The notes beneath the pieces were generated by a model that saw nothing but the letters and a program-made list of their open reading frames with translations, was not told the origin of the DNA and made no database searches. A stretch of DNA of 41,163 nucleotides from Martelella sp. HB161492 (GTDB lineage Bacteria > Pseudomonadota > Alphaproteobacteria > Rhizobiales > Rhizobiaceae): positions 1-41,163 of the forward strand of contig NZ_JAATVV010000020.1 in the NCBI RefSeq assembly GCF_013184775.1, in the 5' to 3' direction. The position numbers and the translations under genes are program-made. Position 1 is the stretch's first letter. Each line of letters starts with the position of its first letter. Below, one piece after another: positions 1-13,210 of the stretch.

Positions 1-67
1 CTTCGCGGGCAACCGCAACAACCTGCTCGATCGTCAGATTGTCGCCGTCCAGAATGATAGTGCTCAT
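1..67 (-). CDS. Aromatic amino acid/histidine ammonia-lyase-type protein, N-terminus only (partial)
   Basis: The gene starts at the ATG complementary to 65-67 and runs off the left edge after 22 codons. The start is backed by an AAGGA motif six bases upstream. The visible peptide contains LDGDNLTIEQVVAVA, which resembles the first strand and helix of HutH/PAL/TAL-family MIO ammonia-lyases (pattern LxGxxLTxExVxxVAR). Family members eliminate ammonia from histidine, tyrosine or phenylalanine to give an unsaturated acid. The catalytic Ala-Ser-Gly triad that forms the MIO cofactor is outside the window, so the assignment rests on the N-terminus alone. It is the last visible gene of the minus-strand catabolic operon, 50 bases after the M20 hydrolase stop. 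Confidence 0.55.
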   Translation of the reverse strand, partial: MSTIILDGDNLTIEQVVAVARE

Positions 68-95
68 GTGTAGTCCTTTGAGATGGGGGATGAGG

Positions 96-109
96 GCCGG
101 TTTCCCGGC
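96..109 (-). other. Intercistronic hairpin with GAAA tetraloop
   Basis: On the minus strand GCCGG-GAAA-CCGGC forms a perfect five-pair stem closed by a GNRA-type loop. It sits between the M20 hydrolase stop codon and the ribosome-binding site of the ammonia-lyase-like gene. No T tract follows, so it is more likely an RNA-stability or processing element than a terminator. Confidence 0.45.
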
Positions 110-117
110 TGCTTCGT

Positions 118-1368
118 TTACTCTTGGTCGAGACGCATCAGCGTTTCGGCGAGAAGGTTTGCGGCGGAGACGAAATCGGCCGTATCGGTCCATTCCTCCG
201 GGCAATGGCTGCGGCCGTCCCTGGACGGCACGAAGATCATGGCGGCCGGCGCCAGCCGGGCGACAAAGGCGGCATCATGACCGGCGCCCGAGGCAAGCGG
301 ACGGGTCCTGAGGCCAAGATTTTCTGCAGCGTTGGCGATGGTTTCCTGAAGATGCTGGTCGCAGGGCACCGCAAAGGTGCGGCTCAGTCGCGAAACTAAG
401 GCCGTGCAGCCTTCTGCCCTGGCGGCTTCGCCGGCCATGGTTTCGGCCGAAGCCAGGAATTCATCCATGGCGCTGTCGTCTTCGGCGCGGATGTCGACGA
501 TGACTTCCGCCCCGCCCGGCACGACATTGGCGCCGTTCGGTTCCAGATGGGCAACCCCGGTCGTGGCGGTGAAATGGCCACGGCCCTGGCCGGCGAGATC
601 GCACGCGCCATCACGGATTGCCAGCATGAAGCGGGCAGCCGCAAGGCCCGCATCCTGACGCATGGTCATCGGTGCGGTGCCGGCATGGGCGGCGATACCT
701 TCGAAGCGGACCTTCAGCCGCCCGATCCCGGCAATGCCGGTGACGATGCCGATCGGCAGGCCTTCGGCTTCCAGCACCGGTCCCTGTTCGATATGGATCT
801 CGACAAAGGAGCGGATGTCATCGCGCAGCGGCTTGCCAAGGGCGGCGGTGTCGCCGCCGATCCGGTTGATTGCTGCGTCGAGCAGTTCCTCATCCGGGCC
901 GATGAGGGAAAATTCCTTCGGCCCGAGCGCGCCGGCCATACCGCGGCTGCCGACACAGGAAAGGCCCCATTCGCTCGGCTCTTCCGCAAGGAAATCAACC
1001 AGTTCGATCGTGTGACGCGGCGTGTAGCCACTGGTCTTCAGCGCGCGGATGGCGGCAAGACCACAGGCAATGCCGGCAATGCCGTCGAACCGGCCCCCGG
1101 AGGGAACGGTGTCGGAATGCGAGCCGGTCATGATCACGCCGGGCTCGGATCCCTCCAGACGGCCAATCAGATTGCCGGCGGCATCAAGGCGAACGCTCAG
1201 TCCTTCCGCCTCGAAACGGGTCTTGAGGTAATCGCGGCCCTTCAGGAACATCGGTGTGAAGGAACGCCGCGTCCAGGGTTTGTCGGGTTCGGTGATTGCC
1301 GCCAGCTGATCGAAATCGGCCTGCAGCGGCTGGATTTCGACGGCGGCGAGGTTGATGCGCTCACTCAT
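118..1368 (-). CDS. M20-family Zn-dependent amidohydrolase (hydantoinase/carbamoylase type)
   Basis: A 416-residue protein of the M20 family branch that includes N-carbamoyl-L-amino acid hydrolase, beta-ureidopropionase and allantoate amidohydrolase. These cytosolic enzymes hydrolyse a terminal carbamoyl or ureido group, releasing ammonia and CO2. The expected metal ligands are visible: H84 in GSHSDTVPSGGRFDG, D95, E129/E130, H192 in EIHIEQGPVLE and H388 in SRDGRSHCPEEW; H364 lies in GAGHDAAF. The length is normal for the family (about 410-420). The ATG overlaps the stop of the upstream amidohydrolase by four bases (ATGA), pointing to translational coupling. Together the two enzymes resemble a hydantoinase/carbamoylase pair: ring opening, then decarbamoylation. 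Exact substrate cannot be read from the sequence. Confidence 0.88.
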   Translation of the reverse strand: MSERINLAAVEIQPLQADFDQLAAITEPDKPWTRRSFTPMFLKGRDYLKTRFEAEGLSVRLDAAGNLIGRLEGSEPGVIMTGSHSDTVPSGGRFDGIAGIACGLAAIRALKTSGYTPRHTIELVDFLAEEPSEWGLSCVGSRGMAGALGPKEFSLIGPDEELLDAAINRIGGDTAALGKPLRDDIRSFVEIHIEQGPVLEAEGLPIGIVTGIAGIGRLKVRFEGIAAHAGTAPMTMRQDAGLAAARFMLAIRDGACDLAGQGRGHFTATTGVAHLEPNGANVVPGGAEVIVDIRAEDDSAMDEFLASAETMAGEAARAEGCTALVSRLSRTFAVPCDQHLQETIANAAENLGLRTRPLASGAGHDAAFVARLAPAAMIFVPSRDGRSHCPEEWTDTADFVSAANLLAETLMRLDQE

Positions 1369-2741
1369 GCTGCATGACCCGGAAGCGGACGGGAGGGTCG
1401 CACAAAGCGTCCCGCGCCCGGTTCTGCCAGAACATCGGTGCCGTCAAAGATCGCCTTGCCGCGCTGGAAGGTCGCGACCGTCGCGTGGCGGATATTCATG
1501 CCCTCATAGGGGCTCCAGCCGACGACATTGTGGCCACTGGCCGACGCATCGTAAATGCGCGGGCGCTCTGCAAAGACGGCGATATCGGCATCAAGACCGA
1601 GCTTCAGCCCGCCCTTCTGATCGGCGATGCGGAACAGACGTGCCGGATTGCCGGCCATCAGCCGCGCGGCAATGGTCAGCGGCAGGCCGCGTTTGGTCAG
1701 TCCGTCGAGGAACAGGCTCGCCATGACTTCAAGGCCCGGCATGCCCGAGGCATTTTCCAGCATGTTGTCGGAGGATTTGGCCTTGAGGCTCCAGGAAACA
1801 TGGTCGGTGGAGATCACCGTGACATTGCCAGCGGCAACCTGCTGCCACAGGGCCTCGCGCTCCTTCATCGTCCGGATCGGCGGGTTGCACTTGGCACGGC
1901 CGAGCAGACGGGAGACGTCTTCCTCTTCGGAGAGAACGAGATAGTGAATGCAGGCCTCGATGGTCGATTCAAAGCCCTGTGCGCGGTAGGCTGCTGCCAT
2001 GTCATACCCACGGCTTGCCGAGCAATGGACGATATGGGCAGGGCAGCCGGTGGCAGCACCGAGCTCATAGACCTCGGCCGTTGCCAGCATTTCGGCAACG
2101 ATCGGGCGTGACGCGGAATGGGCGGCATAGTCGGTGCGCCCGGCATCCTTCATCGCCTTCAGCCAGGTCTTGACGCATTCGTCATTCTCATTGTGAACAC
2201 CGGCGGCAAGGCCGGTCTTGGCCACTTCGGCAAAGGCATCATGCAGCATCGGCGTGGTGATGCGCGGGAAGCGGTTGGGATCGGTCTCGAAGGTGGAGAA
2301 CTTGAATGCCGCAGCCCCGGCTTCCGCCATTTCGGCGATATGGGCGGCGCCATGCAGCGGGTTGATCGTGCCGTAGAGGGCGAAGTCGACGCGGGCCTGC
2401 TCGCCCGCACTTGCGGCCTTTTCAGCGATCATGTCGGCGGTGGAAATCAGCTTGCCGGCATCATAGGGCATGTCGACGATGGTGGTGACGCCGCCGGCGG
2501 CTGCCGAACGGGTCGACCAGACAAAGTCTTCCTGGTCCTTCTGCGAACGCGAATGAACCTGCGGATCGATGGCGCCGGGAAGAATGAGCGCGGACCCGAA
2601 ATCATGGGTTTCGCGGGCAGCGGGCGGCGTGCCGGTACCGAGGCCTGCAATCTTTCCATCGCGAACGGCGACAAATCCGCCTTCGCTCACGCCGTCTTCC
2701 GTAACAAGCGTGCCACGGATCACCGTATCGAAGTCACTCAT
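1365..2741 (-). CDS. Dihydroorotase/allantoinase/hydantoinase-like cyclic amidohydrolase
   Basis: A 458-residue amidohydrolase-superfamily protein related to allantoinase, dihydropyrimidinase and dihydroorotase, which hydrolyse cyclic amides or imides. Visible metal-site elements are K147 (carbamylated lysine position, in AAFKFST), H183, H236/H239 and D313 (STDHVSW). The usual HxH on strand 1 is QVH here (Q61-V62-H63), so one canonical metal ligand is replaced; this Gln also occurs in some dihydroorotase-like proteins, from memory. The start has AAGGA seven bases upstream. It lies 29 bases after the ATPase gene and overlaps the M20 hydrolase by four bases. Pyrimidine synthesis is an unlikely role, because the gene is embedded with a dedicated importer and a carbamoylase; ring opening of an imported cyclic ureide is the better guess. 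Confidence 0.82.
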   Translation of the reverse strand: MSDFDTVIRGTLVTEDGVSEGGFVAVRDGKIAGLGTGTPPAARETHDFGSALILPGAIDPQVHSRSQKDQEDFVWSTRSAAAGGVTTIVDMPYDAGKLISTADMIAEKAASAGEQARVDFALYGTINPLHGAAHIAEMAEAGAAAFKFSTFETDPNRFPRITTPMLHDAFAEVAKTGLAAGVHNENDECVKTWLKAMKDAGRTDYAAHSASRPIVAEMLATAEVYELGAATGCPAHIVHCSASRGYDMAAAYRAQGFESTIEACIHYLVLSEEEDVSRLLGRAKCNPPIRTMKEREALWQQVAAGNVTVISTDHVSWSLKAKSSDNMLENASGMPGLEVMASLFLDGLTKRGLPLTIAARLMAGNPARLFRIADQKGGLKLGLDADIAVFAERPRIYDASASGHNVVGWSPYEGMNIRHATVATFQRGKAIFDGTDVLAEPGAGRFVRPSRPLPGHAA

Positions 2742-2770
2742 TTCGTCTTCCTTTCTGTCCCCTTCTGTCC

Positions 2771-3790
2771 TCAGGCCGGTTTCATGCCCGGCGCGGGCTC
2801 GTCATGGGGAAAATGGCAGGCCGCGAACTGTCCGCCCGGGGCCTCGGCAAGCGTCGGCGTCACGCTGGCGCATTTGTCTTGCGCCCGCGGGCAGCGCAGC
2901 CGGAAGGCACAGCCTTCCGGCGGGCGGATGCGCGAGGGAACGGCGCTGCGGGGCGCGGCCGGTGCGGTCGACTGATCGAGATCGATCACCGGCACGGCCT
3001 CGAGCAAGGTGCGTGTGTAGGGATGGGCGGGGCGGTCATAGATTGCCTTGGCATCGCCAATCTCGACGATCCGGCCCATATAGAGCACACAGACACGGTC
3101 CGAGACATTCTTCACCACGGCGAGATCGTGCGAGATGAAGATCAGCGCCAGCTTGCGCTGCTCGCGAATGTCCTGCAGCAGATTGATGATATGGGCCTGC
3201 ACCGAGACATCGAGCGAGGCGACCGGCTCGTCGCAGACAATCAGCTGCGGCTCGACGGCAAGCGCGCGGGCAATGGCGAGGCGCTGGCACTGACCGCCGG
3301 AAAACTGGTGCGGCTTGCGACCGGCAACCTGTTCGCGGGTAAAGCCGACGGCGGCGAGCGCTGCATCGACGCGCTTGTCACGCTCGGCGCGGGAGACGCC
3401 CTGGATCTCGAGGCCCTCGGCGACGATATCCTCCACCTTGCGGCGCGGATTGAAGGAGGAAACCGGATCCTGGAAGATCATCTGCAGATGCTGGCGCATG
3501 CGGCGCATGTCGCCGGCCGACAGGCTGTTGATGTCCTTTTCCTCGAAGGTGATCGTGCCTTCGGTCTCGGTGTTGGCGGCGCCGAGAAGGCGCAGGACCG
3601 CGCGGCCGATCGTGGTCTTGCCCGAGCCGCTTTCGCCGACCAGTCCGAGGGTTTCGCCGGCGGCGACATCGATCGAGACATCATCGACCGCCAGCATGGT
3701 CTTGCCGGAACGGGTGAAGCGCACCGAAAGATTTTCAACCGTCAGCAGGGCGGCATCGCGCATGGTCGGGGCAGGGGTCTGATTGTTCAT
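2771..3790 (-). CDS. ABC transporter ATPase, DppF/OppF type
   Basis: A 339-residue ATPase of the peptide/opine/nickel importer class, one of two that form the cytoplasmic motor with the adjacent DppD-type subunit. Walker A is GESGSGKTT at residues 52-60, the signature is FSGGQCQRLAIARAL (Cys where Arg is usual), and Walker B with the catalytic Glu is LIVCDEPVASLD. The C-terminal extension carries the cysteine-containing oligopeptide-transporter domain (CAFRLRCPRAQDKCASV) typical of OppD/OppF proteins, where it can bind an iron-sulfur cluster in some members. The gene starts directly after the DppD-type stop codon with no gap. It probably powers import of the operon's substrate. Confidence 0.9.
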   Translation of the reverse strand: MNNQTPAPTMRDAALLTVENLSVRFTRSGKTMLAVDDVSIDVAAGETLGLVGESGSGKTTIGRAVLRLLGAANTETEGTITFEEKDINSLSAGDMRRMRQHLQMIFQDPVSSFNPRRKVEDIVAEGLEIQGVSRAERDKRVDAALAAVGFTREQVAGRKPHQFSGGQCQRLAIARALAVEPQLIVCDEPVASLDVSVQAHIINLLQDIREQRKLALIFISHDLAVVKNVSDRVCVLYMGRIVEIGDAKAIYDRPAHPYTRTLLEAVPVIDLDQSTAPAAPRSAVPSRIRPPEGCAFRLRCPRAQDKCASVTPTLAEAPGGQFAACHFPHDEPAPGMKPA

Positions 3791-4825
3791 CTATTCGGCC
3801 CTTTCCGTTTCGGCGTGGCTGATCACGGGCCCGTCGGGCTGGCCGACCGGGAAATGGCAGGCGAAGCGGTGGTTGCCATCGCGGTTCACGGTCATGTGCG
3901 GCATCGTCTCGTGGCAGATGGCCTCGGCTGCCGTGCAGCGCGGGGCAAAGGGGCAGCCCTTGCGGCCAACCGCAAGCGAGGGCGGCGAGCCCGGAATGGT
4001 GGTGAGCTTGGCATGGGCCGGCTGGTCCATCTTCGGCATGGCTGAAAGCAGGGCTTGCGTGTAGCGATGGCGCGGATTGCGGAACACGACATCGGTCTTG
4101 CCGTATTCGACGATATGGCCGCCATAGAGCACCAGCAGTTCATCGGTCCGCCCGGCAACGATGGCGAGATTGTGCGAGACGATGATCATCGACATTTCGC
4201 GTTCGCGCTGCAGCGCCTGCAGCAGGTCGAGCACTTCCTTCTGCACCGTCACATCAAGCGCCGTTGTCGCTTCGTCGGCAATCAGAAGCTCCGGCTTGCA
4301 GGCAAGGGCTGCGGCAATCATGATGCGCTGCTTCATGCCACCGGAGAAATGATGCGGGAAATAGCCGTAGCAGTCTTCGGGATCGGGAATGCCGACAACG
4401 CCGAGCAGTTCGATGGCGCGGGCGCGGGCGTCCTTCTTGGTGAGGCCGAGATGGGCGCGGGCGGCTTCCTCGATCTGGCGGCCTATGCGCACAAACGGGT
4501 TGAGCGAGGTCATCGGGTTCTGGAACACCATGCCGACGCGGCGGCCGGTGAGTTCGGCGCGCTTCTGGCGCGGCAGGCTCAACAGATCCTCACCATCGAA
4601 GAAGATGCGGCCGTCAACGCGCATGCCGTTGGGCGTGATGCCCATGATCGCCTTGATCAGCATGGATTTGCCGGCACCGCTTTCGCCGACAATGCCGAGT
4701 GCGGTTTTTGCGTTCAGGCGGAAGACGATATCTTCGAGCACGCGCACAGGGCCGCTGTCGGTTTCCAGTGTGCAGGCGATGGTGTCGACCTTCAGCAGCG
4801 GATTGTCTTTTTCTGTCTCAGCCAT
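3791..4825 (-). CDS. ABC transporter ATPase, DppD/OppD type
   Basis: A 344-residue ATPase partner of the DppF-type subunit. Walker A is GESGAGKS at residues 47-54, the signature FSGGMKQRIMIAAAL, and Walker B LLIADEATTALD; a C-terminal oligopeptide-transporter domain has CPFAPRC and a later AICHETMP cysteine. I chose the ATG at 4825 (MAETEK) because a GGAG motif lies nine bases upstream; an in-frame ATG at 4834 lies only three bases from that motif and would overlap the permease gene by eight bases. From the 4825 start the gene lies one base beyond the permease stop. It abuts the next ATPase, so the four transporter core genes are tightly packed. Confidence 0.9.
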   Translation of the reverse strand: MAETEKDNPLLKVDTIACTLETDSGPVRVLEDIVFRLNAKTALGIVGESGAGKSMLIKAIMGITPNGMRVDGRIFFDGEDLLSLPRQKRAELTGRRVGMVFQNPMTSLNPFVRIGRQIEEAARAHLGLTKKDARARAIELLGVVGIPDPEDCYGYFPHHFSGGMKQRIMIAAALACKPELLIADEATTALDVTVQKEVLDLLQALQREREMSMIIVSHNLAIVAGRTDELLVLYGGHIVEYGKTDVVFRNPRHRYTQALLSAMPKMDQPAHAKLTTIPGSPPSLAVGRKGCPFAPRCTAAEAICHETMPHMTVNRDGNHRFACHFPVGQPDGPVISHAETERAE

Positions 4826-4826
4826 G

Positions 4827-5753
4827 TCATGCACTCCGGTCGCGGCTGTTGAGCCGTCTGGCGAAATAGTCGCCCACCGTGTTCAGCGCATAGACCGTCA
4901 GCACGATGGCGAGGATCGGGCCGAGGATCAGAAGCGGAAAACGGCTGATCAGGTCAGTCGAGGCGGCGATCATGCCGCCCCAGGAGGGCGCGGGGGCCGG
5001 GATGCCGTAGCCAAGGAAGGAGAGTGAACCTTCCGTCACGATCAGGCCGGCCATCAGCGTCGGCATGATGGCGGTCAGGGCGGGCACCAGGTTCGGCAGG
5101 ATCTCCTTTAGGAGAATGCGGCGGTCGGAAGCGCCCATGGCGCGGGCGGCCAGCACATAATCACGGCTAGACTGCGAAATCACACCGCCCTTGGCGACGC
5201 GGGCATAGGTGCCGATGTCGAGAATGCCGAGCACCAGGGTGATCGTCATCACAGACGAACCGGTGACTGCAACGAAGGCCAGCACGACGAGGATCGACGG
5301 CAGCGACGACATGGTGTTGGCATAAAGATCGACGATGCGCTCGACGATACCGCGGTAATAGCCGGCCAGAAGACCGAGCATCAGGCCGCAGCAGGCCGAA
5401 AGCAGCGTTGCAAACAGCACGATGGTCAGCGAGGCGCGAGCGCCCCAGATGACGCGGGACAAAATGCTGCGGCCGATCTCGTCGGTGCCAAGCAGTCCGT
5501 TCAGCGTCAGGCTTGGCGGCTGGGAAAAGTCGCCATAGGGAAAGATCGGGCTGACAAGGCCGGGAATGAAATTCACGAAGGCAGCGGCGAGAACCAGAAC
5601 GATCAGGAACACCGCAGAAAGGACTTCGAAGGCCGATGCCTCGGGGAAGCGCAGGCGCCGGGTCCTGGGCAGGGCTGCCTCGACGATCGCCGCAAGGGTC
5701 GCCTTGTCGCTTTCTTCGGGCAAGCCGGTCGGAATGTGGGATGACTGGCTCAT
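4827..5753 (-). CDS. ABC transporter permease, DppC/OppC type
   Basis: A 308-residue inner-membrane permease. It has an N-terminal hydrophobic segment after a cytoplasmic leader (about residues 45-65), a periplasmic loop with the family-typical HxxGTDExGRDxxSRxxWGAR-like stretch (LLGTDEIGRSILSRVIWGA), and four or five further membrane segments. The EAA loop that docks on the ATPase is seen as AARAMGASDRRILLKEILPN. The ATG overlaps the upstream DppB-type stop by four bases, so the two permeases are probably translated in a coupled way and pair as a heterodimer. Confidence 0.9.
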   Translation of the reverse strand: MSQSSHIPTGLPEESDKATLAAIVEAALPRTRRLRFPEASAFEVLSAVFLIVLVLAAAFVNFIPGLVSPIFPYGDFSQPPSLTLNGLLGTDEIGRSILSRVIWGARASLTIVLFATLLSACCGLMLGLLAGYYRGIVERIVDLYANTMSSLPSILVVLAFVAVTGSSVMTITLVLGILDIGTYARVAKGGVISQSSRDYVLAARAMGASDRRILLKEILPNLVPALTAIMPTLMAGLIVTEGSLSFLGYGIPAPAPSWGGMIAASTDLISRFPLLILGPILAIVLTVYALNTVGDYFARRLNSRDRSA

Positions 5754-6715
5754 GCGACATCTACCCTGGGATCAATGATGGCGTAGCAGAGATCAACGAG
5801 AATGAAGATCGCGACGAAGATGACAACTGTCAGCGAGAGGATGCCCTGAACGACCGCCAGATCATGGTTCTTGACCGCCGAGAGCACGGTCCAGCCGATG
5901 CCGGGCACGGCGAAATAGGCCTCGACGACAAAGGAACCAGCCAGCAGATAGGTCATCGACATGCCCATGACCGTGATGATCTGTGGCAGCGCCGGCCGCA
6001 GCACATGGCGGAACAGGATATAGCTGAGCGACAGGCCCTTGACGCGGGCAACCTGAACGAAATCTTCCTGCAGGGCCGTAACAAACTCATTGCGGGCAAC
6101 GCGGTAGAGATAGGCGCACTGATGGGCCGCAAGACACATGACGGGAAGACAGACATACCAGAGATTGGCGAGCGGATCGTCGGAGAAGGAGGCCCAGCCG
6201 GTTGCCGGCAGCCAGCGCAGGATCAGCGAGAAAAGATAGGACAGCAGCACCACGATGACGAAGGTCGGCACCGCCAGAAGCAGCGACGAGACGGACCGCA
6301 TCGCCGTGTCGGCGAATTTGCCCGGATGGCTTGCCGTATACATGGCAAGCGGCACGCCGATCAGGAAGGAGACCAGCTGGGCGAGAAGCGCGATTTCGAA
6401 GGTCACGGATGCACGGTCGATCAGAAGCTGGGACACCGGCTGCTGGGAAAACAGCGTAACGCCGAAATCGCCATGGATCACGCCGCCGAGCCAGTGCAGA
6501 TAGCGCTGGAAGATCGGCAGGTTATAGCCATATTCAGCATTGAGCTTGGCAATCTGTTCCTGGGTGGCATTATCGCCGAGGATCAGCTGGGCCGGCGAAC
6601 CTGGCGACAGATTTGCAAGCGCCGTGGCTGCAAATGTGACCAGGAAAAATACCGGTATACCAGCCAGCAGCCGCATTCCGATCGCTTTTCCATAAAGCAG
6701 GACGCCGTTTCTCAA
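5750..6715 (-). CDS. ABC transporter permease, DppB/OppB type
   Basis: A 321-residue inner-membrane permease with the DppB layout: a first membrane segment at about residues 12-32, a periplasmic domain with the SPGSPAQLILGDNATQ stretch, then five membrane helices. The EAA loop ARVKGLSLSYILFRHVLRPA sits before the last two helices, and the C-terminus ends in the typical YAIIDPRV. It is the first gene of the transporter core, 101 bases downstream of the isocitrate lyase-family gene, with a strong intercistronic hairpin between the two. Confidence 0.9.
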   Translation of the reverse strand: MRNGVLLYGKAIGMRLLAGIPVFFLVTFAATALANLSPGSPAQLILGDNATQEQIAKLNAEYGYNLPIFQRYLHWLGGVIHGDFGVTLFSQQPVSQLLIDRASVTFEIALLAQLVSFLIGVPLAMYTASHPGKFADTAMRSVSSLLLAVPTFVIVVLLSYLFSLILRWLPATGWASFSDDPLANLWYVCLPVMCLAAHQCAYLYRVARNEFVTALQEDFVQVARVKGLSLSYILFRHVLRPALPQIITVMGMSMTYLLAGSFVVEAYFAVPGIGWTVLSAVKNHDLAVVQGILSLTVVIFVAIFILVDLCYAIIDPRVDVA

Positions 6716-6756
6716 GGCACCGCTCCTTCTGTTCTTGTCTTCGCGCCCGAATTTCA

Positions 6757-6793
6757 GGCGGGGACGGGGTTATCCGTTGATCCGGTCCCCGCC
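6757..6793. other. Strong intercistronic stem-loop, T-run on plus strand
   Basis: GGCGGGGAC (6757-6765) pairs perfectly with GTCCCCGCC (6785-6793), followed by TTTTT on the plus strand. For operon transcription (minus strand) the T-run becomes a leading A-run, so the structure is a stem-loop without a terminator tail. It would act as a classic terminator only for antisense transcription. Confidence 0.6.
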
Positions 6794-6816
6794 TTTTTCA
6801 GGGCGAGGTGACCGCC

Positions 6817-7749
6817 TCAGACCTTCTTCCATTCAGCTTCGGCATCGAGCCAGCCGCTGTCGCGTTCAAGCAGCTGCTTCTGCTCGGCCTTGGTATAGCC
6901 GCCCATGTCATGCTCATCGGCATAGCGGGTCGACTGGTCGGCGAAAACGTGACGGCCGTAATCCATCATGCCGAACATCGAAGCCTTTTCCAGATAATGC
7001 ATGGTGACGAGGTTGAAGCCGAGTTCGGCGATCTCGTCGAGGGTGACGAAGGGCTTGCCGTCAATGGTGGCGACATCGCCGAACATCTTCCAGCCGGGCA
7101 GAACCTTGGCGACCTTCTTGCACTCGTCAAGCGTGCGCAGCCCGTGGACATAGGTCATTTCGGCGCCGAGTTCGGCAGCGCGGACACAGCGCTCGATCGC
7201 ATCGTCGAGGCCCTTTTCGAGCTTCGATTCCGAGCGGGCGATGATCACGCAGTCGGTGCCTTCGCAGGCTTCGATGCCGGCCTTGATCTTGGCGAGCCAG
7301 AGTTCGGCGGATACGACTTCATGGGTAACATTGCCGTCGACCTTGCCGGCGAGCGTTGCCTCTTCCATGGCGCGGCCGAAGCGGGCATAGCCGCGTTCGT
7401 TCGGCGTATCCTCGATCAGGATGGCAGCGGCACCGGCCTTGGCCAGGCGCTTGCAGGTACGATAGGCCTGGGCGACGTCGCCAAAGCCGTCATCGGCATC
7501 GATGATCAGCGGCAACGGGGAGTAATCGGCAATCCGGTCGGTGGCCCAGATCAGTTCTTCCTGATTGTGCAGTCCCATATCGGGAACGCCGGACATGGAG
7601 AAACCGACCGATGCGCCGCTCAAAAGTGTGGCCTTGAAGCCGGCCATTTCGGCGGCCTTGGCGGAATAGCAGTCCCAGACGCAAGGGGTGAAGACCTGTT
7701 CGCGGGCGAAAAGCTCGCGGAAAGTGGTTCTGGGTCGCTTGTCGAACAT
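6817..7749 (-). CDS. Isocitrate lyase/PEP mutase superfamily enzyme (oxaloacetate decarboxylase- or methylisocitrate lyase-like)
   Basis: A 310-residue alpha/beta-barrel enzyme. Superfamily members break or form C-C or C-P bonds in 2-hydroxy or 2-oxo dicarboxylates using Mg. The metal/oxyanion strand reads DADDGFGD (usually DADTGYGN) and the next strand has IEDTPNERG where lyases with a catalytic Cys show IEDQ..PKKCGH. That Cys loop is absent, which favours a PEP mutase-, oxaloacetate decarboxylase- or dimethylmalate lyase-like reaction over true (methyl)isocitrate cleavage. Later ARSES replaces the common ARTDA. The ATG at 7749 (MFDKRPR) was chosen over an upstream in-frame start because the preceding 49 codons read through the intercistronic hairpin and look non-coding. 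The reaction is unknown; the operon suggests a late C-C cleavage step. Confidence 0.8.
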   Translation of the reverse strand: MFDKRPRTTFRELFAREQVFTPCVWDCYSAKAAEMAGFKATLLSGASVGFSMSGVPDMGLHNQEELIWATDRIADYSPLPLIIDADDGFGDVAQAYRTCKRLAKAGAAAILIEDTPNERGYARFGRAMEEATLAGKVDGNVTHEVVSAELWLAKIKAGIEACEGTDCVIIARSESKLEKGLDDAIERCVRAAELGAEMTYVHGLRTLDECKKVAKVLPGWKMFGDVATIDGKPFVTLDEIAELGFNLVTMHYLEKASMFGMMDYGRHVFADQSTRYADEHDMGGYTKAEQKQLLERDSGWLDAEAEWKKV

Positions 7750-7823
7750 GTGTGATGGCCTTTTTTTAAGGGATGGTTGTTCTTCCGCCGGGGCGGGACA
7801 CTGAAATATCGGCCGGCCCGGGT

Positions 7824-7849
7824 TGCGATCCGCCCTGAGGCGGATCGCA
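7824..7849 (-). other. Intercistronic stem-loop downstream of the binding-protein gene
   Basis: TGCGATCCGCC and GGCGGATCGCA form a perfect 11-pair stem with a four-base loop, starting 16 bases after the solute-binding protein stop codon (minus strand). No T-run follows. In many importer operons such a structure protects the upstream binding-protein mRNA from 3' decay, giving more binding protein than membrane subunits. Confidence 0.6.
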
Positions 7850-7865
7850 GTCGTCACATTCTGGT

Positions 7866-9488
7866 TTACTTCTTCGCCTGGCAGGCGTCGTCGCAAACAT
7901 AGAGATACTGCTTCTGCAGCATGCCGCCGTCAGACGGGACGATGCCGCCGGTGTTGTCGCGCAGCAGCAGGAAGCGCGTTTCCGAACCGAAGATATAGAG
8001 CGGCAGGTCCTCTGCGACCATCTTCTGGACGTCGAGATAGTCAGCCTTGACCTCGGCGTCGTCCATGGTGGCGCTGGCGGCCTTCAGCTCTTCGTCCATC
8101 TTCGGGTTGCTGTACTGGCCCCAGTTGTAGATGCCGTCGGATGCCAGATGACCGGAAATGGTCGGCTCGGCGCCGTTGGCAACCAGAACGCCGCCGTCGA
8201 CGCAAAGGTCGAAGTTCAGCTGGTCCTTGCAGGTGGTGGTCAGCATGGCCTGATCGACGATGTCGACGTCGACCTTGACGTTCTTGTAGGCGCTCATGAC
8301 CTGCTGAACGTAGGACGCCAGACGCTTCAGGTCGGAGTTGGAATAGGTGACCAGCTTCATTTCGAACGGCTTGCCTTCATCGGCCAGCTCATTGAAAATC
8401 TTCTGCGCATCTTCCGGATTGTATTCCGGCAGATTGTATTCCGTCTGGTAGTAAGGCGAGACCTGAGTGAAGTAGTTGTTCGGCGTGACATAGCCACCGG
8501 TCTGCGTATAGGCCTGCATCAGGCGCGAACGGTCGATCGCCTCATAGAAAGCCTTGCGGGCACGCACATCGGTGAAGGGGCCGGACGTCTGGTTGAAGAA
8601 GGCGCGGTAGAGGCCCGGGATCGGGATCTCATGGGTGGCAACACCGGGCGCCTCAGCATTGGAACCGAACTGGTAGGGATAGCCGGCCATCATGGTCGCG
8701 CCGCCCTGAACAACGGTTGCGATACGGCTGTTGGTTTCCGGGATGATCTTGAAGTTCAGCGTGTCGAGATAGGGACGCGGCTGATCCCAGTAGTTGGGGT
8801 TGCGCTTCAGCGTCATGGAAACGCCCTGGTCCCAGCTGTCAAAGATGAACGGGCCGGCGCCGACAGGCTTGATGTCGGACTTCTGCTTGGCAGCGGCCAG
8901 TTCCTTCGGCGAACCGATGAAAGGGGCCTGCTGGGCAAGCTGCGAACCGAAGTTGCGGTTCGGCTGGTCGAGCGTGATCGTCAGGGTCAGCGGATCGATG
9001 ATCTTGATGCTCTTGTCCCAGGACGAAACGAAAGCCTGGGTCGGAGCCATGGTTTCCGGGTCGGCCATGCGATCCCAGTTATACTTCACGGCTTCGGCGT
9101 CATAGGCTTCGCCATCGGAAAAGGTGATGCCGGGGCGCAGCTTCAGCGTCCAGGTCTGGGCGTCTTCACTGGTCAGGCTTTCGGCCATGCCGCCCTGGAT
9201 CTTGCCGTTGACGTCGATATAGACGAGCACGCCGTAAATGGCGTCACGAACGTCCATCGGGCCACCCGGATAGGTGCCGTTGGTCAGCGCCGGATCCCAG
9301 CTGGTGATATCCGAGCCGTTAATGATGGTCATCTCGCCGCCGGCGATCGGCTGCTGGTCGTCAGCAACGGCCTTGGTGGCGATCGCGCCCGAGACGACGG
9401 GGCCGGCTGCTGCAAGCGCCAGCGCCATCATCAGCGCGCGACCAGAGGTGAGAAAAGTGCCGGAACGGCGCTTCGAAGTGAATGGCAT
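7866..9488 (-). CDS. ABC transporter solute-binding protein, family 5 (DppA/OppA type)
   Basis: A 540-residue periplasmic binding protein. The ATG at 9488 (MPFTSKRR) gives a long signal peptide with basic n-region, hydrophobic core (about residues 19-31) and a probable cleavage site after AVA before DDQQP. The mature part shows family-5 landmarks: SWDPALTNG, the LRPGITFSDGEAYDAEAVKYNWDR motif region, LNFKIIPETN and ARKAFYEAIDR. It would bind the substrate and deliver it to the DppBC-type permeases of this operon. It is placed upstream of, and separated by a stable hairpin from, the lyase and transporter genes. Family-5 proteins bind peptides, opines, nickel, heme or glycosides, so the ligand cannot be read here. 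Confidence 0.9.
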   Translation of the reverse strand: MPFTSKRRSGTFLTSGRALMMALALAAAGPVVSGAIATKAVADDQQPIAGGEMTIINGSDITSWDPALTNGTYPGGPMDVRDAIYGVLVYIDVNGKIQGGMAESLTSEDAQTWTLKLRPGITFSDGEAYDAEAVKYNWDRMADPETMAPTQAFVSSWDKSIKIIDPLTLTITLDQPNRNFGSQLAQQAPFIGSPKELAAAKQKSDIKPVGAGPFIFDSWDQGVSMTLKRNPNYWDQPRPYLDTLNFKIIPETNSRIATVVQGGATMMAGYPYQFGSNAEAPGVATHEIPIPGLYRAFFNQTSGPFTDVRARKAFYEAIDRSRLMQAYTQTGGYVTPNNYFTQVSPYYQTEYNLPEYNPEDAQKIFNELADEGKPFEMKLVTYSNSDLKRLASYVQQVMSAYKNVKVDVDIVDQAMLTTTCKDQLNFDLCVDGGVLVANGAEPTISGHLASDGIYNWGQYSNPKMDEELKAASATMDDAEVKADYLDVQKMVAEDLPLYIFGSETRFLLLRDNTGGIVPSDGGMLQKQYLYVCDDACQAKK

Positions 9489-9507
9489 TGCCTGTTTCTC
9501 CAATCTC

Positions 9508-9531
9508 TCCGTCCCTCTATGAGCGGACGGA
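9508..9531 (-). other. Small stem-loop in the binding-protein leader
   Basis: TCCGTCC and GGACGGA form a seven-pair stem with a ten-base loop about 20 bases before the solute-binding protein start codon. It lies in the 105-base gap after the UbiX-type gene and may be a 5' stabiliser of a processed mRNA. Support is the inverted repeat only. Confidence 0.3.
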
Positions 9532-9593
9532 TACATGTTCCCGATTGTGATTTCTATGCGGCATGGGTTGCATGCCCCGATACGAACCGCCTG

Positions 9594-10175
9594 CTAGTGG
9601 TCCGCCTGATCCGTGTCCCTCCATCTCCTGACGGCCGGATGGCTGATATCAAACAGGTCGAGTGCCCGGCCGACACTCTGATTGATGATGTCGTCGATCG
9701 TCTTGGGCTTTGTGTAAAAGCCCGGAACGGGGGGCATGATGATCGCGCCGCTGCGGGTCGCCTGATCCATCAATGCGATATGTCCGGCATGAAACGGTGT
9801 CTCGCGCAGCATCAGCACGAGCCGGCGACGTTCCTTGAGGCAGACATCGGCTGCCCGTGTAATCAGGTCTTCGGCGTAGCAATGGGCGATGCCGCTGAGC
9901 GTTTTCACCGAGCAGGGCGCGACCAGCATGCCGGCGGAGCGGAATGAGCCGGAAGCAATCGCCGCACCGATATCCTTATGGCTGTAATTGACGTCGGCGA
10001 GCGCGCGGATTTCGTCCGCGCTCATGTCGATGCCCTCTTCCTGTGCGGTGCGGATCGCCGATGGCGAGATCACCAGATGGGTCTCGACATCTTCGATCGC
10101 GCGCAACATTTCGAGCGCGCGGATGCCGTAGCAGGTCCCGGATGCTCCGGTGATGGCGACGATCATACGGCGCAT
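9594..10175 (-). CDS. ubiX: UbiX-family flavin prenyltransferase
   Basis: A 193-residue protein of the UbiX/Pad1 family. These enzymes attach a dimethylallyl group to FMN, making the prenylated FMN cofactor that UbiD-type decarboxylases need. Visible motifs are the N-terminal flavin loop ITGASGTCYG (residues 8-17), PCSVKTLSGIA, YAEDLITRAADVCLKERRRLVL, LRETPFHAGHI and the C-terminal PPVPGFYTKPKTIDD. The start is supported by AGGAG six bases upstream. It follows the UbiD-type gene by 67 bases. A cofactor maker dedicated to the neighbouring decarboxylase is the natural reading, rather than ubiquinone synthesis. Confidence 0.9.
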   Translation of the reverse strand: MRRMIVAITGASGTCYGIRALEMLRAIEDVETHLVISPSAIRTAQEEGIDMSADEIRALADVNYSHKDIGAAIASGSFRSAGMLVAPCSVKTLSGIAHCYAEDLITRAADVCLKERRRLVLMLRETPFHAGHIALMDQATRSGAIIMPPVPGFYTKPKTIDDIINQSVGRALDLFDISHPAVRRWRDTDQADH

Positions 10176-10242
10176 TGTCGTCTCCTGTTTCCGGCGCTCC
10201 GCGCGCTTTGTCCGTTGCTTCCGCTAGCGAAGGGGAGAACTG

Positions 10243-11667
10243 TCATGGCAGAAGGTCCGGACGGATGGTTGAGAGAAGGCTGCGCATGCGGGCATAGGCA
10301 TCCTCGGGCGGCAGGGCCTTGTCATAGCCCTGTGAACGGTCGCCTGCCTTCATCGTCGCGTCGTAGCCGATCTTGGCGACAACGCCGCCGTCTTCCTGGG
10401 CTTCCGAGCGGTCGGCCGGCAGGTCGCTGATGATCAGAACGTCACGTTCGGCGCGCATGCGGGTCATCTTGGCAAGTTCGACGGCCGCCAGATCCCACGG
10501 ATCGACATCGGCATCGATAATGGTGACATTCTTGATGATGCTGACGGCCCCCCAGCAGATTGCCATGGCGCGGCGCGCCTGGCCGGGGCGGGGATCCTTC
10601 AGCTGGACGATCACATCGTTGCGGCCGGAACCGGTGGCGGTTACCGCGACATCACCGACATTTTGCAGCGCGCGGGAAAGCTGGGCCTTCAGCGAGGCTG
10701 CAATCGGCACGGCGGCGATGAAGATATGTTCGGCGTGATAACCCGGTTCGATCACCTGGAACATGGCGTCTGCCCGGTTGGTGCGAGCCTGGAAGGTGCA
10801 GATCAGGCCACTGCCGTAATCCTCATACATGCCGTGATATTCGGAAACCGGTCCTTCGACCAGCGGCCGGTCGGAATGGATCAGACCTTCGAGGACAACC
10901 TCGGCTTCGGCCGGAACGAGCAGGTCGGAGCTCACGGTTTTGGCCATGCGTACCGGTGCGCCGAGCAGGGCGCCGGCATTCTCCATCTCGTCATCGCCGA
11001 GGCCGAGATAGAGGCAGGCGGCCAGCTGGATGGCAGGGTGGGCGCCGAGCACGACGGCGAAGGGCAGCGGCTTGCCCATGGCGGCCGCCTTGCGGGCCAT
11101 GATGGCGAGGTGGTGGTTCGGGGCAATGCCGATCATCGCCTCGTTTTCATTCAGCACTTTCAGCCGGGCATAGGAGGCATTGCCGAGACCGGTTTCGGGA
11201 TCCTTCGCGATGATCATGCCGGCGGAGATGTAAGGGCCGGTCTCACGCTGGAAAAAATGCGGAACCGGCAGGCCGGCGAGAACATTCTCGCGGACGACAA
11301 CCTCCTGGACCGGAGCGTTGTCGATGATTTCCGGCTTGATCGGATTGCGCACGGCGTCCGTCAGTGTCTTCTGGATCTGATCGACAGAAACACCAAGTGC
11401 CATTGCAATGCGTTCGCGGCTGGTCAGAAGGTTGCCGAAGAGCCGTATGTCGGAGCCTTCGATTTTGTCGAAGCGCACGGCAGCGCGGTGGTCGGCGAGC
11501 GACAGCATCGCCGATACATCGAACTTCGCACTGACCGGCTTGTCGACAACGAGCAGTTCGCCCTTGCCCTCAAGAGCATTGAGAATGCTTCTGCATGACT
11601 GATCATCCGTGCGGGTGTTTTCCGCTGCGGGGATCGGGGAAATGGTCTTTTCAGCAACAGACGTCAC
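10243..11667 (-). CDS. UbiD-family prenylated-FMN-dependent (de)carboxylase
   Basis: A 474-residue UbiD-family enzyme, which reversibly decarboxylates aromatic, heteroaromatic or alpha,beta-unsaturated carboxylic acids using prenylated FMN. The catalytic Glu-Arg-Glu triad can be placed: R168 in ASYARLKV, and E271 and E276 in EGPVSEYHG. The cofactor-binding region around residues 164-190 ends in HH (NHHLAIM). The start is a GTG at 11667 with AAGGA eight bases upstream; an ATG upstream is in another frame. It is the first gene of the 11-gene minus-strand operon, followed by its UbiX partner. Substrates of UbiD homologues range from cinnamate and protocatechuate to pyrrole- and furan-carboxylates, so none is assigned. 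Confidence 0.9.
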   Translation of the reverse strand: MTSVAEKTISPIPAAENTRTDDQSCRSILNALEGKGELLVVDKPVSAKFDVSAMLSLADHRAAVRFDKIEGSDIRLFGNLLTSRERIAMALGVSVDQIQKTLTDAVRNPIKPEIIDNAPVQEVVVRENVLAGLPVPHFFQRETGPYISAGMIIAKDPETGLGNASYARLKVLNENEAMIGIAPNHHLAIMARKAAAMGKPLPFAVVLGAHPAIQLAACLYLGLGDDEMENAGALLGAPVRMAKTVSSDLLVPAEAEVVLEGLIHSDRPLVEGPVSEYHGMYEDYGSGLICTFQARTNRADAMFQVIEPGYHAEHIFIAAVPIAASLKAQLSRALQNVGDVAVTATGSGRNDVIVQLKDPRPGQARRAMAICWGAVSIIKNVTIIDADVDPWDLAAVELAKMTRMRAERDVLIISDLPADRSEAQEDGGVVAKIGYDATMKAGDRSQGYDKALPPEDAYARMRSLLSTIRPDLLP

Positions 11668-12010
11668 GCAGGCAGTCCTTCATCACATTCAAATTATGAA
11701 AATGATTATGAGAGACGGGTTCCGGCCTTGGTAGCGGTCTGAAACCGAAGCGGCCCATAGGAGAAATTGAACTGAAGCCCCTCTGGGTTGTGTTTATATC
11801 TTCGGATATCGGCAGGGTAGAATTTCGGGTCGCGACCTTTGGCGGCGGACCTTGGTGCGGGCAGCCGGTACCCTGTGGCCGACTCGTCGCATTTTTGCTG
11901 TCTGGGCTGTGGAAAACCACTATTCTCCGGTGCTTAAGTGATGTATCGATTGCACAGGGCAGCGCTCCTGCCGGTACCTTTCCTTTCATTTCTGTTTTGT
12001 GCTGGTCCTC
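11668..12010. promoter_or_regulatory. Divergent control region between the UbiD-led operon and the MFS gene
   Basis: A 343-base gene-free interval between diverging genes. Next to the decarboxylase start it is AT-rich, with the hexamer array described separately. A short dyad ATATC-TTCG-GATAT lies at 11806-11819. No regulator gene adjoins the operon on this side. I could not confidently place -35/-10 elements. Confidence 0.5.
11693..11711 (-). promoter_or_regulatory. Tandem ATTATGA / Fur-like hexamer array
   Basis: On the minus strand the sequence reads TCATAATCATTTTCATAAT, which can be parsed as three hexamers resembling the NATWAT units of Fur boxes. It sits 26-44 bases upstream of the GTG start of the decarboxylase gene. 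Rhizobia mostly use RirA, Irr and Mur instead of classical Fur, so the binding factor is uncertain, and an AT-rich promoter element is the simplest alternative. Confidence 0.3.
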
Positions 12011-13210
12011 ATGCCCAAGACCCTGTCGCTCGTCTATTCGAATCCCGTGCTCAGATTGTCTGCCGCGGGGCTTTTTTTCTTTGGCTTTGCCGGTGCTGCG
12101 ACCTCGCCCTATCTGTCGATCATCGGCATTCAGGAGCTGGGCATGACGGACCGCGCTTATGCGATGGTGATCCTTCTCGGCGCCCTAGTCTCAGTGGTGG
12201 CGAGTATCCTGATCGGCTCGCTCGCCGATCGGATCGGCAGTTTCAGGGTTTCGCTGATGGTCACCAGCCTCACTGGTGTCATCGGGTTTCTCTGGGTCTA
12301 TCTGCTGCCGTCGCAATCGTCTTTCACGATCGCCAAAATACTGTTCATTCCCTTTTTCACGGCCCTCAATCCGCTGATCTTCGCCAATGTCCGGGTGCAG
12401 ATCGTCGGCCGGCCCTATCAGGAAATGGTGTCGGTGAACTCGGCCGTCCGCGCCGTGCTGTCCCTGTCCTGGGTGCTGGTTCCGGGCGTGGTCGGCGCCC
12501 TGCTGGCGGGCAGTTCCAGCATGCTGCCGTCCTTTCTGTTCGCCGGTCTTGCGTCACTTGTCTGTGTGTCGCTGTTCTCGCTTTCGGGCCATGAGCCGGA
12601 AGCCGTGGTTGCCAATCGCCGCAGCGAGCCGTTTCTGAAGGCTTTTGCTGCCTTTGCTGGGGCGGGACTGTGGATCCGCCTGCTGGCGATCTCGCTGATC
12701 ACGGCGATGATGCATATGTGCGGCACGGTGCTGCCGCTGATCATTACCGGTCAGGCGGGCGGCACGGTCTCGGATGTCGGCCTGCTGGTTGGCATTGTTG
12801 CGGGCCTGGAGATCGTTTTCATCATCTTCTGGTCCTATGTCGAGCGGGTCTTGCCGCATGTGGTCACGCTGGTGATCGGCGCGGCGGTCTATGTCGTCTA
12901 TCTCTATCTGCTCGGCCATGTCAGCGAGCCCTGGCAGGCCTATGCGCTGACGCCGGTCGCAGGCCTTGGCGCCGCCGCGATCATCTCCGTGCCGATCACC
13001 TATCTGCAGAATCTGATTGAAGATCGTCCCGGGGTCGGCAGTTCCCTGATTTCGGTCAACATGTTTGCAAGCGCCGGACTTGGTGCAGGCCTGTTTGCGC
13101 TTGGAACCCGTTTCACCGACTATTCCGGCACGGCCGTCCTTTCGGCCGCCGCTGGTCTCATCGGCTGCATTCTTGTCCTGGCGCTTGACGGACCGAAGCG
13201 GCAGCGCTGA
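12011..13210 (+). CDS. MFS transporter, sugar efflux (SetA/SetB)-like
   Basis: A 399-residue protein with about 12 hydrophobic segments. The loop between segments 2 and 3 carries the MFS signature (GSLADRIGSFRVS). The overall pattern, including a late EDRPGVGSSLISVN segment, resembles bacterial sugar-efflux transporters of the Set family, which expel sugars or analogues with protons. The start is uncertain: ATG at 12011 (MPKTLSL) or an in-frame GTG at 11999; neither has a good ribosome-binding site. It is transcribed away from the UbiD-led operon and may or may not share its regulation. It could equally export a toxic pathway intermediate. Confidence 0.75.
   Translation: MPKTLSLVYSNPVLRLSAAGLFFFGFAGAATSPYLSIIGIQELGMTDRAYAMVILLGALVSVVASILIGSLADRIGSFRVSLMVTSLTGVIGFLWVYLLPSQSSFTIAKILFIPFFTALNPLIFANVRVQIVGRPYQEMVSVNSAVRAVLSLSWVLVPGVVGALLAGSSSMLPSFLFAGLASLVCVSLFSLSGHEPEAVVANRRSEPFLKAFAAFAGAGLWIRLLAISLITAMMHMCGTVLPLIITGQAGGTVSDVGLLVGIVAGLEIVFIIFWSYVERVLPHVVTLVIGAAVYVVYLYLLGHVSEPWQAYALTPVAGLGAAAIISVPITYLQNLIEDRPGVGSSLISVNMFASAGLGAGLFALGTRFTDYSGTAVLSAAAGLIGCILVLALDGPKRQR

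Follow-up and report, generated by a model that had tools for sequence, protein, structure and literature searches.

A UbiD-containing operon of Martelella sp. HB161492 as a candidate route from a C2-substituted histidine analogue to glutamate

The window analysed here is a 41,163-nucleotide stretch of the Martelella sp. HB161492 genome (5.28 Mb), namely contig C13 (NZ_JAATVV010000020.1) from its first base. From position 11667 down to the contig start, open reading frame (ORF) calls and family scans identified eleven genes on the minus strand, of which ten are complete and the eleventh, a lyase gene, is present as its first 22 codons. The set combines a UbiD-family enzyme and UbiX with a peptide-type importer, a PEP-mutase relative, a hydantoinase-like and a carbamoylase-like amidohydrolase, and the lyase. 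With a confidence only a little better than even, we propose that this operon catabolises a histidine analogue, bearing a C2 substituent at the oxidation level of a urea carbon, to glutamate by way of UbiD. The genes and the adjoining gap are as follows (aa, amino acids).

10243..11667, minus strand: UbiD-family enzyme, 474 aa, first gene of the operon (TIGR00148, 266.2 bits, cut-off 244.85; PF01977, PF20695, PF20696)
9594..10175, minus strand: UbiX flavin prenyltransferase, 193 aa, which makes the prenylated flavin mononucleotide (FMN) cofactor (NF004685, 260.2 bits, cut-off 188)
7866..9536, minus strand: solute-binding protein (SBP) of the peptide/opine type, SBP_bac_5 (PF00496, 233.2 bits)
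6817..7749, minus strand: PEP-mutase/isocitrate-lyase superfamily enzyme (PF13714, 116.9 bits; the start is the ATG used in the Martelella alba copy)
5750..6715, minus strand: importer permease, OppB/DppB type (PF00528, PF19300)
4827..5753, minus strand: importer permease, OppC/DppC type (PF00528; overlaps its neighbours by 4 and 8 bases)
3791..4834, minus strand: importer ATPase, OppD/DppD type (PF00005, oligo_HPY)
2771..3790, minus strand: importer ATPase, OppF/DppF type (PF00005, oligo_HPY)
1365..2741, minus strand: ErtD-type amidohydrolase, hydantoinase-like (NF058538, 755.0 bits, cut-off 600)
118..1368, minus strand: ErtE-type M20 amidohydrolase, carbamoylase-like (NF058540, 550.7 bits, cut-off 520)
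1..67, minus strand: histidine-ammonia-lyase-like gene, 5' part, cut by the contig start (ATG at 67)
11668..11998, no strand: gap between the operon and a divergent MFS gene (11999-13210, plus strand); presumed promoter region, from position only

The original prediction had treated these genes as one operon packed on a single strand, and the layout bears this out. Neighbouring genes overlap by 4 (5750/5753), 8 (4827/4834) and 4 bases (1365/1368), one pair abuts (3790/3791), and the remaining six intergenic gaps measure 29 to 116 bases. A sigma-70 scan of positions 1-12400 returned three promoter-like sites against a shuffle mean of 2.9, and 14 terminator-like sites were found against 9.5 (standard deviation 3.5) in shuffles, four of the 14 lying on the operon strand. 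There is thus no good evidence that internal promoters or terminators split the operon. The predicted UbiD/UbiX pair is recovered by the family models listed above, as is a dedicated importer of the Opp/Dpp type, comprising a family 5 SBP, two permeases and two ATPases with oligo_HPY.

The lyase is truncated by the assembly, since the window opens with the first base of contig C13. Its anticipated leftward completion is seen in the nearest relatives found in our searches, M. alba (L020; UbiD identity of 99%) and M. limonii (L021; 85%), where the operon continues with a complete lyase of 537 aa and then a LysR-type gene on the same strand (644 and 704 aa as called, respectively). The LysR-type regulators found with the operon at L012:10061-11932, L020:2218-4152 and L006:1816-3753 are unusually long (620-650 aa, roughly double the normal size); from length alone, we suspect that they are double LysR halves. 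The lyase start is present twice in the genome of the window, as the opening 93 bases of contig C15 (L006) are identical to positions 1-93. Positions 1-1540 of C15 hold a second UbiD gene, 65% identical, which stops 57 bases ahead of this lyase start. Beside it are a LysR-type gene (645 aa) and what appears by eye to be a polyamine-type importer. The body of the C15 lyase is missing too (a genome search gave only the lyase on contig C44), perhaps owing to a collapsed repeat.

The same gene order is annotated on plasmid pAtS4e of Allorhizobium ampelinum (L012) and in Agrobacterium vitis VAR03-1 (L014), both with an extra small gene (TIGR02444) ahead of the hydantoinase. To follow the set further, one scan yielded 94 UbiD relatives, of which 80 loci were retained, many of them cut by contig ends or by the 10-kb flank. 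UbiD, UbiX, SBP, PEP-mutase relative, OppB, ErtD and ErtE occur all together in 18 of these 80 loci, so the gene set is kept together. Individually, ErtD plus ErtE were found in 52 loci, ErtE in 56, UbiX in 47, the PEP-mutase relative in 23 and a lyase in 39, including that of L026, which is probably part of its hut operon. The best match of the lyase was to that of A. ampelinum in 25 of the 39 and to that of Rhizobium jaguaris in 14. Record titles of the loci name Hyphomicrobiales, Rhodospirillales, Burkholderiaceae, Bifidobacteriaceae, Chloroflexota, Synergistales and Trueperaceae. Of 222 neighbour ORFs listed, 110 were scanned, and none of the further enzyme families had matches in more than four of them. 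These 110 were chosen from the first 150 listed, ending at L082, excluding strict thio loci (see below) and near-duplicate loci, and families matched only once or twice may be hidden. The gene caller was simple and some ORFs are probably shadow ORFs, with no Pfam match for 1/10 and 3/10 in two scans.

The TIGR02444 protein, of unknown function, is often beside ErtD (L012:20975-21496 and 19 of the 80 loci) and may serve as an accessory to UbiD. We saw no copy in the Martelella operons. It also occurs near more distant UbiD clusters of Sinorhizobium meliloti (L015) and Pseudohalocynthiibacter (L019). In the former (L015:13268-19458), the distant UbiD (32% identity) and a UbiX adjoin a HutC regulator and lie near FAD and 2Fe-2S proteins that look opine-oxidase-like by eye. 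One of its neighbours, a 104-aa (2Fe-2S)-binding protein (L015:17771-18085), is labelled as a poxtA resistance gene in PLSDB, which looks like a misprediction.

The two amidohydrolases point to ergothioneine-type degradation. The hydantoinase-like protein passes the ErtD model NF058538 (hydantoin-5-propionate amidohydrolase) at 755.0 bits, and the carbamoylase-like protein passes the ErtE model NF058540 (N-carbamyl-l-glutamate amidohydrolase) at 550.7 bits, scoring slightly higher on the generic model NF009531 (567.0 bits, cut-off 486). The expected opening of a cyclic ureide and removal of a carbamoyl group thus fit both proteins. Allantoin or pyrimidine ring opening was considered and rejected, as the hydantoinase-like protein scores below the cut-offs for allantoinase AllB (290.1, cut-off 357.85) and for D-hydantoinase (228.6, cut-off 393.25). 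By family, the ErtD of the window probably turns hydantoin-5-propionate into N-carbamoyl-glutamate, which ErtE would turn into glutamate. ErtDs of the window type are nested among or adjoin the ErtDs of thiourocanate clusters, which argues for one shared ErtD substrate. The family names of the thiourocanate clusters also place ErtD and ErtE late in the pathway. Elsewhere in the same genome, contig C7 (L007) carries what appears by eye to be another set of hydantoinase-like and carbamoylase-like genes, with 73% DNA identity to the carbamoylase gene of the window in two short stretches.

The complete lyases of relatives are histidine-ammonia-lyase-like, in line with the predicted lyase that should form an unsaturated acid. 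Against the HutH model TIGR01225 (cut-off 539.15), the M. alba lyase scores 531.8 and the A. ampelinum lyase 540.5; the copy in the window is truncated and ends before the motif from which the 4-methylideneimidazol-5-one (MIO) group forms. At that position, the Martelella relatives (L020, L021) have A-C-G and L012 and L014 have A-S-G, as does the canonical lyase of the window's genome. The Cys of an A-C-G motif may still form the MIO group. Lyases of the window type retain the LSH and QEDHVSM stretches of HutH.

Two kinds of lyase occur beside the UbiD relatives, the MIO-type (A-S-G or A-C-G) and a MIO-less kind. Ergothionase itself is described as lacking the MIO cofactor (PMC13405746). Counted as rows, in which some genes were fetched twice (e.g., L020 and L182), MIO-less lyases make up 57 of 58 beside the thio module alone, that is, thiourocanate hydratase and thiohydantoin desulfurase without UbiD. 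Beside UbiD alone (n = 47), 26 are MIO-less and 21 MIO-type, and both lyases beside the two modules together are MIO-type. Because a carbamoylase could not yield a trimethylammonium betaine, the MIO-less lyase would have to precede ErtD and ErtE, at least in clusters that have one. The L016 lyase, which is MIO-less, bears only a remote resemblance to the solved ergothionase 6s7j (26.9 bits). Permeases that we read as OpuC-type betaine importers lie beside MIO-less lyases in L016, L094 and L095, and such an importer is annotated in Agrobacterium tumefaciens (L103). Since the window type has a peptide-type importer, a betaine is a less likely substrate for it than an amino acid or a peptide containing one. 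In L060, the lyase is followed by an FAD-linked oxidase and an aminotransferase, which agrees with an amino acid being what the lyase acts on. UbiD is accompanied by a lyase of the MIO-less kind, and by neither ErtD nor ErtE within the locus, in L050, L052, L054, L056-L059 and L075, all metagenome-assembled genomes (MAGs) titled Rhodospirillales, Rhodospirillaceae, Alphaproteobacteria or Gammaproteobacteria.

These results bear on the chain first suggested for the operon, in which an aryl hydantoin is opened, decarbamoylated to an aromatic amino acid and deaminated to an aryl acrylate that UbiD converts to a vinyl arene. Such a chain would use the same enzymes and needs no urocanase, and published abstracts describe UbiD enzymes of the Fdc kind that decarboxylate aryl acrylates. 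We nevertheless regard it as very improbable: the hydantoinase and carbamoylase are of the ErtD and ErtE families, with ErtD nested among those of thiourocanate clusters, MIO-less lyases stand beside relatives of the same UbiD, and window-type lyases retain the QEDHVSM stretch of HutH. The UbiD itself is closest, among solved structures, to 6h6v (223.8 bits), and the best Fdc entry reaches 84 bits. It is therefore probable that the suggested order, with the hydantoin first and the vinyl arene at the end, should be reversed. The view that the set resembles no described pathway needs revision as well, since at the family level the operon is a branch of ergothioneine-type degradation.

The relation between UbiD and the thio module was determined from an ErtD-anchored search, to avoid choosing loci by UbiD. 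It covered 394 genomes of the window's family (72 matched) and 385 of its class (8 matched), from which 76 loci were sampled: 71 of 72 family places, the window being left out, and five of nine class places, leaving out the window and three below the cut-off. This design would not detect a UbiD gene lying more than about 9 kb away from ErtD. The strict thio set was used for the counts; L026 and L034 qualify as thio at loose thresholds only. The thio module without UbiD was found in 57 loci, UbiD without the thio module in nine, both in five and neither in five. Of the 57 thio-only loci, 55 have both thio genes; the other two, whose contigs measure 10.6 and 13.2 kb, have the desulfurase alone. 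The two modules thus alternate (Fisher's exact p = 2.0e-5 over 76 loci, among which related genomes are not independent). On a tree of 125 ErtDs, at least 14 changes are required to account for the module state of 120 rows. Across seven independent UbiD contrasts, the thio module changed in the opposite direction in 5.2 on average, in the same direction in 0, and showed no difference in 1.8.

Neither thiourocanate hydratase nor thiohydantoin desulfurase was found among the ten complete genes of the window or around the complete relatives L012, L014, L020 and L021. Genome G092 encodes two ErtDs, of which one adjoins the thio module and the other UbiD (loci L177 and L179). In Thalassospira marina (L017), UbiD shares a single row with ErtD, ErtE, a thiohydantoin desulfurase (611.4 bits, cut-off 440) and a thiourocanate hydratase (1018.7, cut-off 930). 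Thio genes are present in the Burkholderiaceae loci L060-L062, which lack the PEP-mutase relative; L060 and L061 also hold a TRAP importer. On plasmid pAt of A. tumefaciens Ach5 (L103), we observed a S-methyl thiourocanate hydratase (975.8 bits, cut-off 880) and a S-methyl thiohydantoin desulfurase (555.1, cut-off 450), in a cluster that also holds ErtD, ErtE, a betaine importer, a MIO-less lyase and a molybdopterin oxide reductase.

Urocanase and desulfurase were looked for in 40 of the 80 UbiD-locus genomes, chosen by us, and lyases in 16 of those 40. The desulfurase domain S-Me-THD_N (PF06032) is present in 22 of the 40. Both it and urocanase (PF01175) are absent from five of the 40, namely three isolates, M. 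limonii (L023), Devosia sp. Root685 (L033) and Devosia enhydra (L044), a Bifidobacteriaceae MAG (L055) and a Rhizobium MAG (L095). In all five, there is only one aromatic-lyase gene; it lies within the operon, except in Root685, where it is found 0.6 kb beyond the fetched locus. The M. limonii genome is rated 100% complete and a re-check confirmed its result. In L055, the lyase, ErtD, UbiD, ErtE and UbiX form one compact row. As no other enzyme for the step was found in these genomes, UbiD with UbiX is, by elimination, the best candidate between the lyase product and ErtD. Contig C44 of the window's genome carries a hut-type lyase of its own and a urocanase, so that plain histidine is probably served already. 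The neighbours of these two genes (L005) look like HutI and HutG by eye.

In the UbiD subfamily to which the operon enzyme belongs, Arg168, Glu271 and Glu276, the Arg-Glu-Glu triad, are invariant in 88 of 88 members, as is Ser275. Residue 274 is Val in 84 and Ile in four, so that Val/Ile-Ser stands where three outgroup UbiDs have Phe-Gly; printed alignments show EGPFGEY in 6h6v and EGPFAEV in AnInD at the place where the subfamily has EGx(V/I)SE. His185-His186 is also invariant (88/88), but since the outgroups share these residues (His186 in 3/3, His185 in 2/3), the pair is not diagnostic. We consider it a tentative and rather unlikely possibility that this is a distinct subfamily (marked by EGx(V/I)SE and GIAxNHH) which does not decarboxylate its natural substrate, and in which prenylated FMN acts as an electrophile to hydrate the urocanate and strip its C2 substituent, replacing hydratase and desulfurase in one step. 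Among open-licence PMC papers, a search for UbiD with ergothioneine returned a nutrition review only, and none was found by title for UbiD or prenylated FMN with C-S bond, hydratase or desulfonation chemistry.

Alternatively, UbiD could be an ordinary decarboxylase that acts elsewhere, for instance on an imidazole ring carboxylate, with hydration supplied by a urocanase encoded outside the operon. The hallmarks of a decarboxylase are present, with the triad intact throughout the subfamily and UbiX beside UbiD in the window. The nearest solved relative, 6h6v, is one we take to be the furandicarboxylate decarboxylase HmfF, which acts on a five-ring heteroaromatic acid, and urocanase occurs in most of the genomes examined. 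This explanation is unlikely in our view: the three isolates above carry the operon without urocanase, and a ring with hydrogen at C2 would not explain ErtD, which should need an oxo group there.

In the route from a C2-substituted histidine analogue that we favour, the substrate would be imported by the peptide-type ABC transporter and the MIO-type lyase would remove ammonia, leaving a C2-substituted urocanate. This would then be turned into hydantoin-5-propionate by UbiD with its UbiX-derived cofactor, in place of the thiourocanate hydratase and thiohydantoin desulfurase of other operons. ErtD would open the hydantoin ring to N-carbamoyl-glutamate, from which ErtE would release CO2 and ammonia to leave L-glutamate. 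The proposed UbiD chemistry draws on what is generally known of the urocanase and prenyl-flavin mechanisms: the electrophilic prenyl-flavin iminium could take the part of NAD+ in urocanase, and sulfite would leave if the substituent is a sulfonate. Converting a C2-substituted urocanate to hydantoin-5-propionate with no redox partner would require C2 to bear sulfur or oxygen from the outset. By this bookkeeping, a thione would need the release of sulfide, which the thio module performs, and UbiD alone is best fitted by a 2-sulfonate, with release of sulfite, or by a 2-oxo ring, which needs one hydration. Loci with both modules could take a thione and its oxidised form side by side.

Several observations weigh against this route. 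Urocanase is present in 33 of the 40 genomes, and also on contig C44 of the window's own genome, and could act from elsewhere. Five of the 76 ErtD-anchored loci have both modules and five have neither, so UbiD is not a strict substitute for the thio module. Fisher's test ignores relatedness, and the sign test on independent contrasts gives a median p of 0.06 on an ErtD tree that includes UbiD-picked loci. The 25 families most often matched by the 110 neighbour ORFs include none that handles sulfite, such as an exporter or oxidase. No UbiX gene turned up at the Devosia enhydra locus. The ErtD of L055 scores 438.0 and 398.4 against cut-offs of 650 and 600; the hydantoinases of the Bifidobacteriaceae and Chloroflexota clusters both fall below the ErtD cut-offs, that of Chloroflexota matching best as an allantoinase, which makes these clusters weak support. 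The known activities of UbiD enzymes are carboxylation and decarboxylation.

Part of the route may not be new. Yan, Huang and Zhang (2022; 10.1021/acscatal.2c00169) reportedly deal with ergothioneine sulfonate catabolism and, judging by the title, may already assign the UbiD step. We regard it as a serious possibility, though short of an even one, that the operon represents their route with an amino-acid-type lyase; this overlaps with the C2-substituted histidine route and bears mainly on its novelty. The title, which appears in the reference lists of PMC13405746 and PMC9967237, fits. A 2026 study names Agrobacterium radiobacter as an ergothionase organism and cites that reference, and there are relatives with MIO-less lyases beside OpuC-type permeases (L016, L094, L095). 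Against this, the relatives of the window type have a MIO-type lyase and a peptide-type importer, which makes a betaine unlikely here.

The PEP-mutase-family gene travels with the importer and scores below all eight listed NCBIfam cut-offs. Methylisocitrate lyase PrpB (TIGR02317, 134.2 bits, cut-off 354.4) and isocitrate lyase, also below its cut-offs, were both rejected as assignments. The C-C cleavage first suggested might be a role for this protein. Its loop, EDTPNERGYARFG, has no Cys, unlike the loop of the lyases in the superfamily. This loop is retained in 28 of 33 rows (with F for Y in two), and the other five are low-scoring paralogues. On pAtS4e, a PEP-mutase paralogue lies beside a second importer and an aminotransferase.

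Oxidised and sulfur-modified histidines are natural compounds, and their clearance by bacteria is understood only in part. The operon suggests a third entry to hydantoin-5-propionate, alongside the thione and S-methyl routes, and a UbiD subfamily that may perform chemistry besides decarboxylation. A pathway would also be gained for genes that the records found here annotate no further than UbiD family decarboxylase, dihydroorotase, allantoinase, amidohydrolase or Zn-dependent hydrolase.

Among known systems, HmfF (6h6v) aligns with the UbiD of the window at the catalytic Arg and two Glu residues, but has EGPFGEY in place of EGx(V/I)SE and one residue fewer in the GIAxNHH segment. The canonical Hut pathway shares a histidine-ammonia-lyase-like enzyme with the QEDH stretch and, as proposed here, glutamate as the product, whereas the window operon has no urocanase, which is found with a second lyase on C44. 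The S-methyl thiourocanate/S-methyl thiohydantoin variant (NF058531, NF058532; L103) shares ErtD, ErtE and a lyase, but employs a hydratase, a desulfurase and a molybdopterin oxide reductase, with no UbiD in the 21-kb stretch. With ergothioneine degradation after ergothionase (NF058530, NF058529, NF058538, NF058540), whose genes stand in one row with UbiD in Thalassospira marina, the operon shares ErtD, ErtE and a lyase of the histidine-ammonia-lyase superfamily. The window operon differs in having UbiD and UbiX and no thiourocanate hydratase or thiohydantoin desulfurase, in the MIO-type (A-C-G) lyase of its close relatives where ergothionase has no MIO, and in the addition of a peptide-type importer and a PEP-mutase-family gene.

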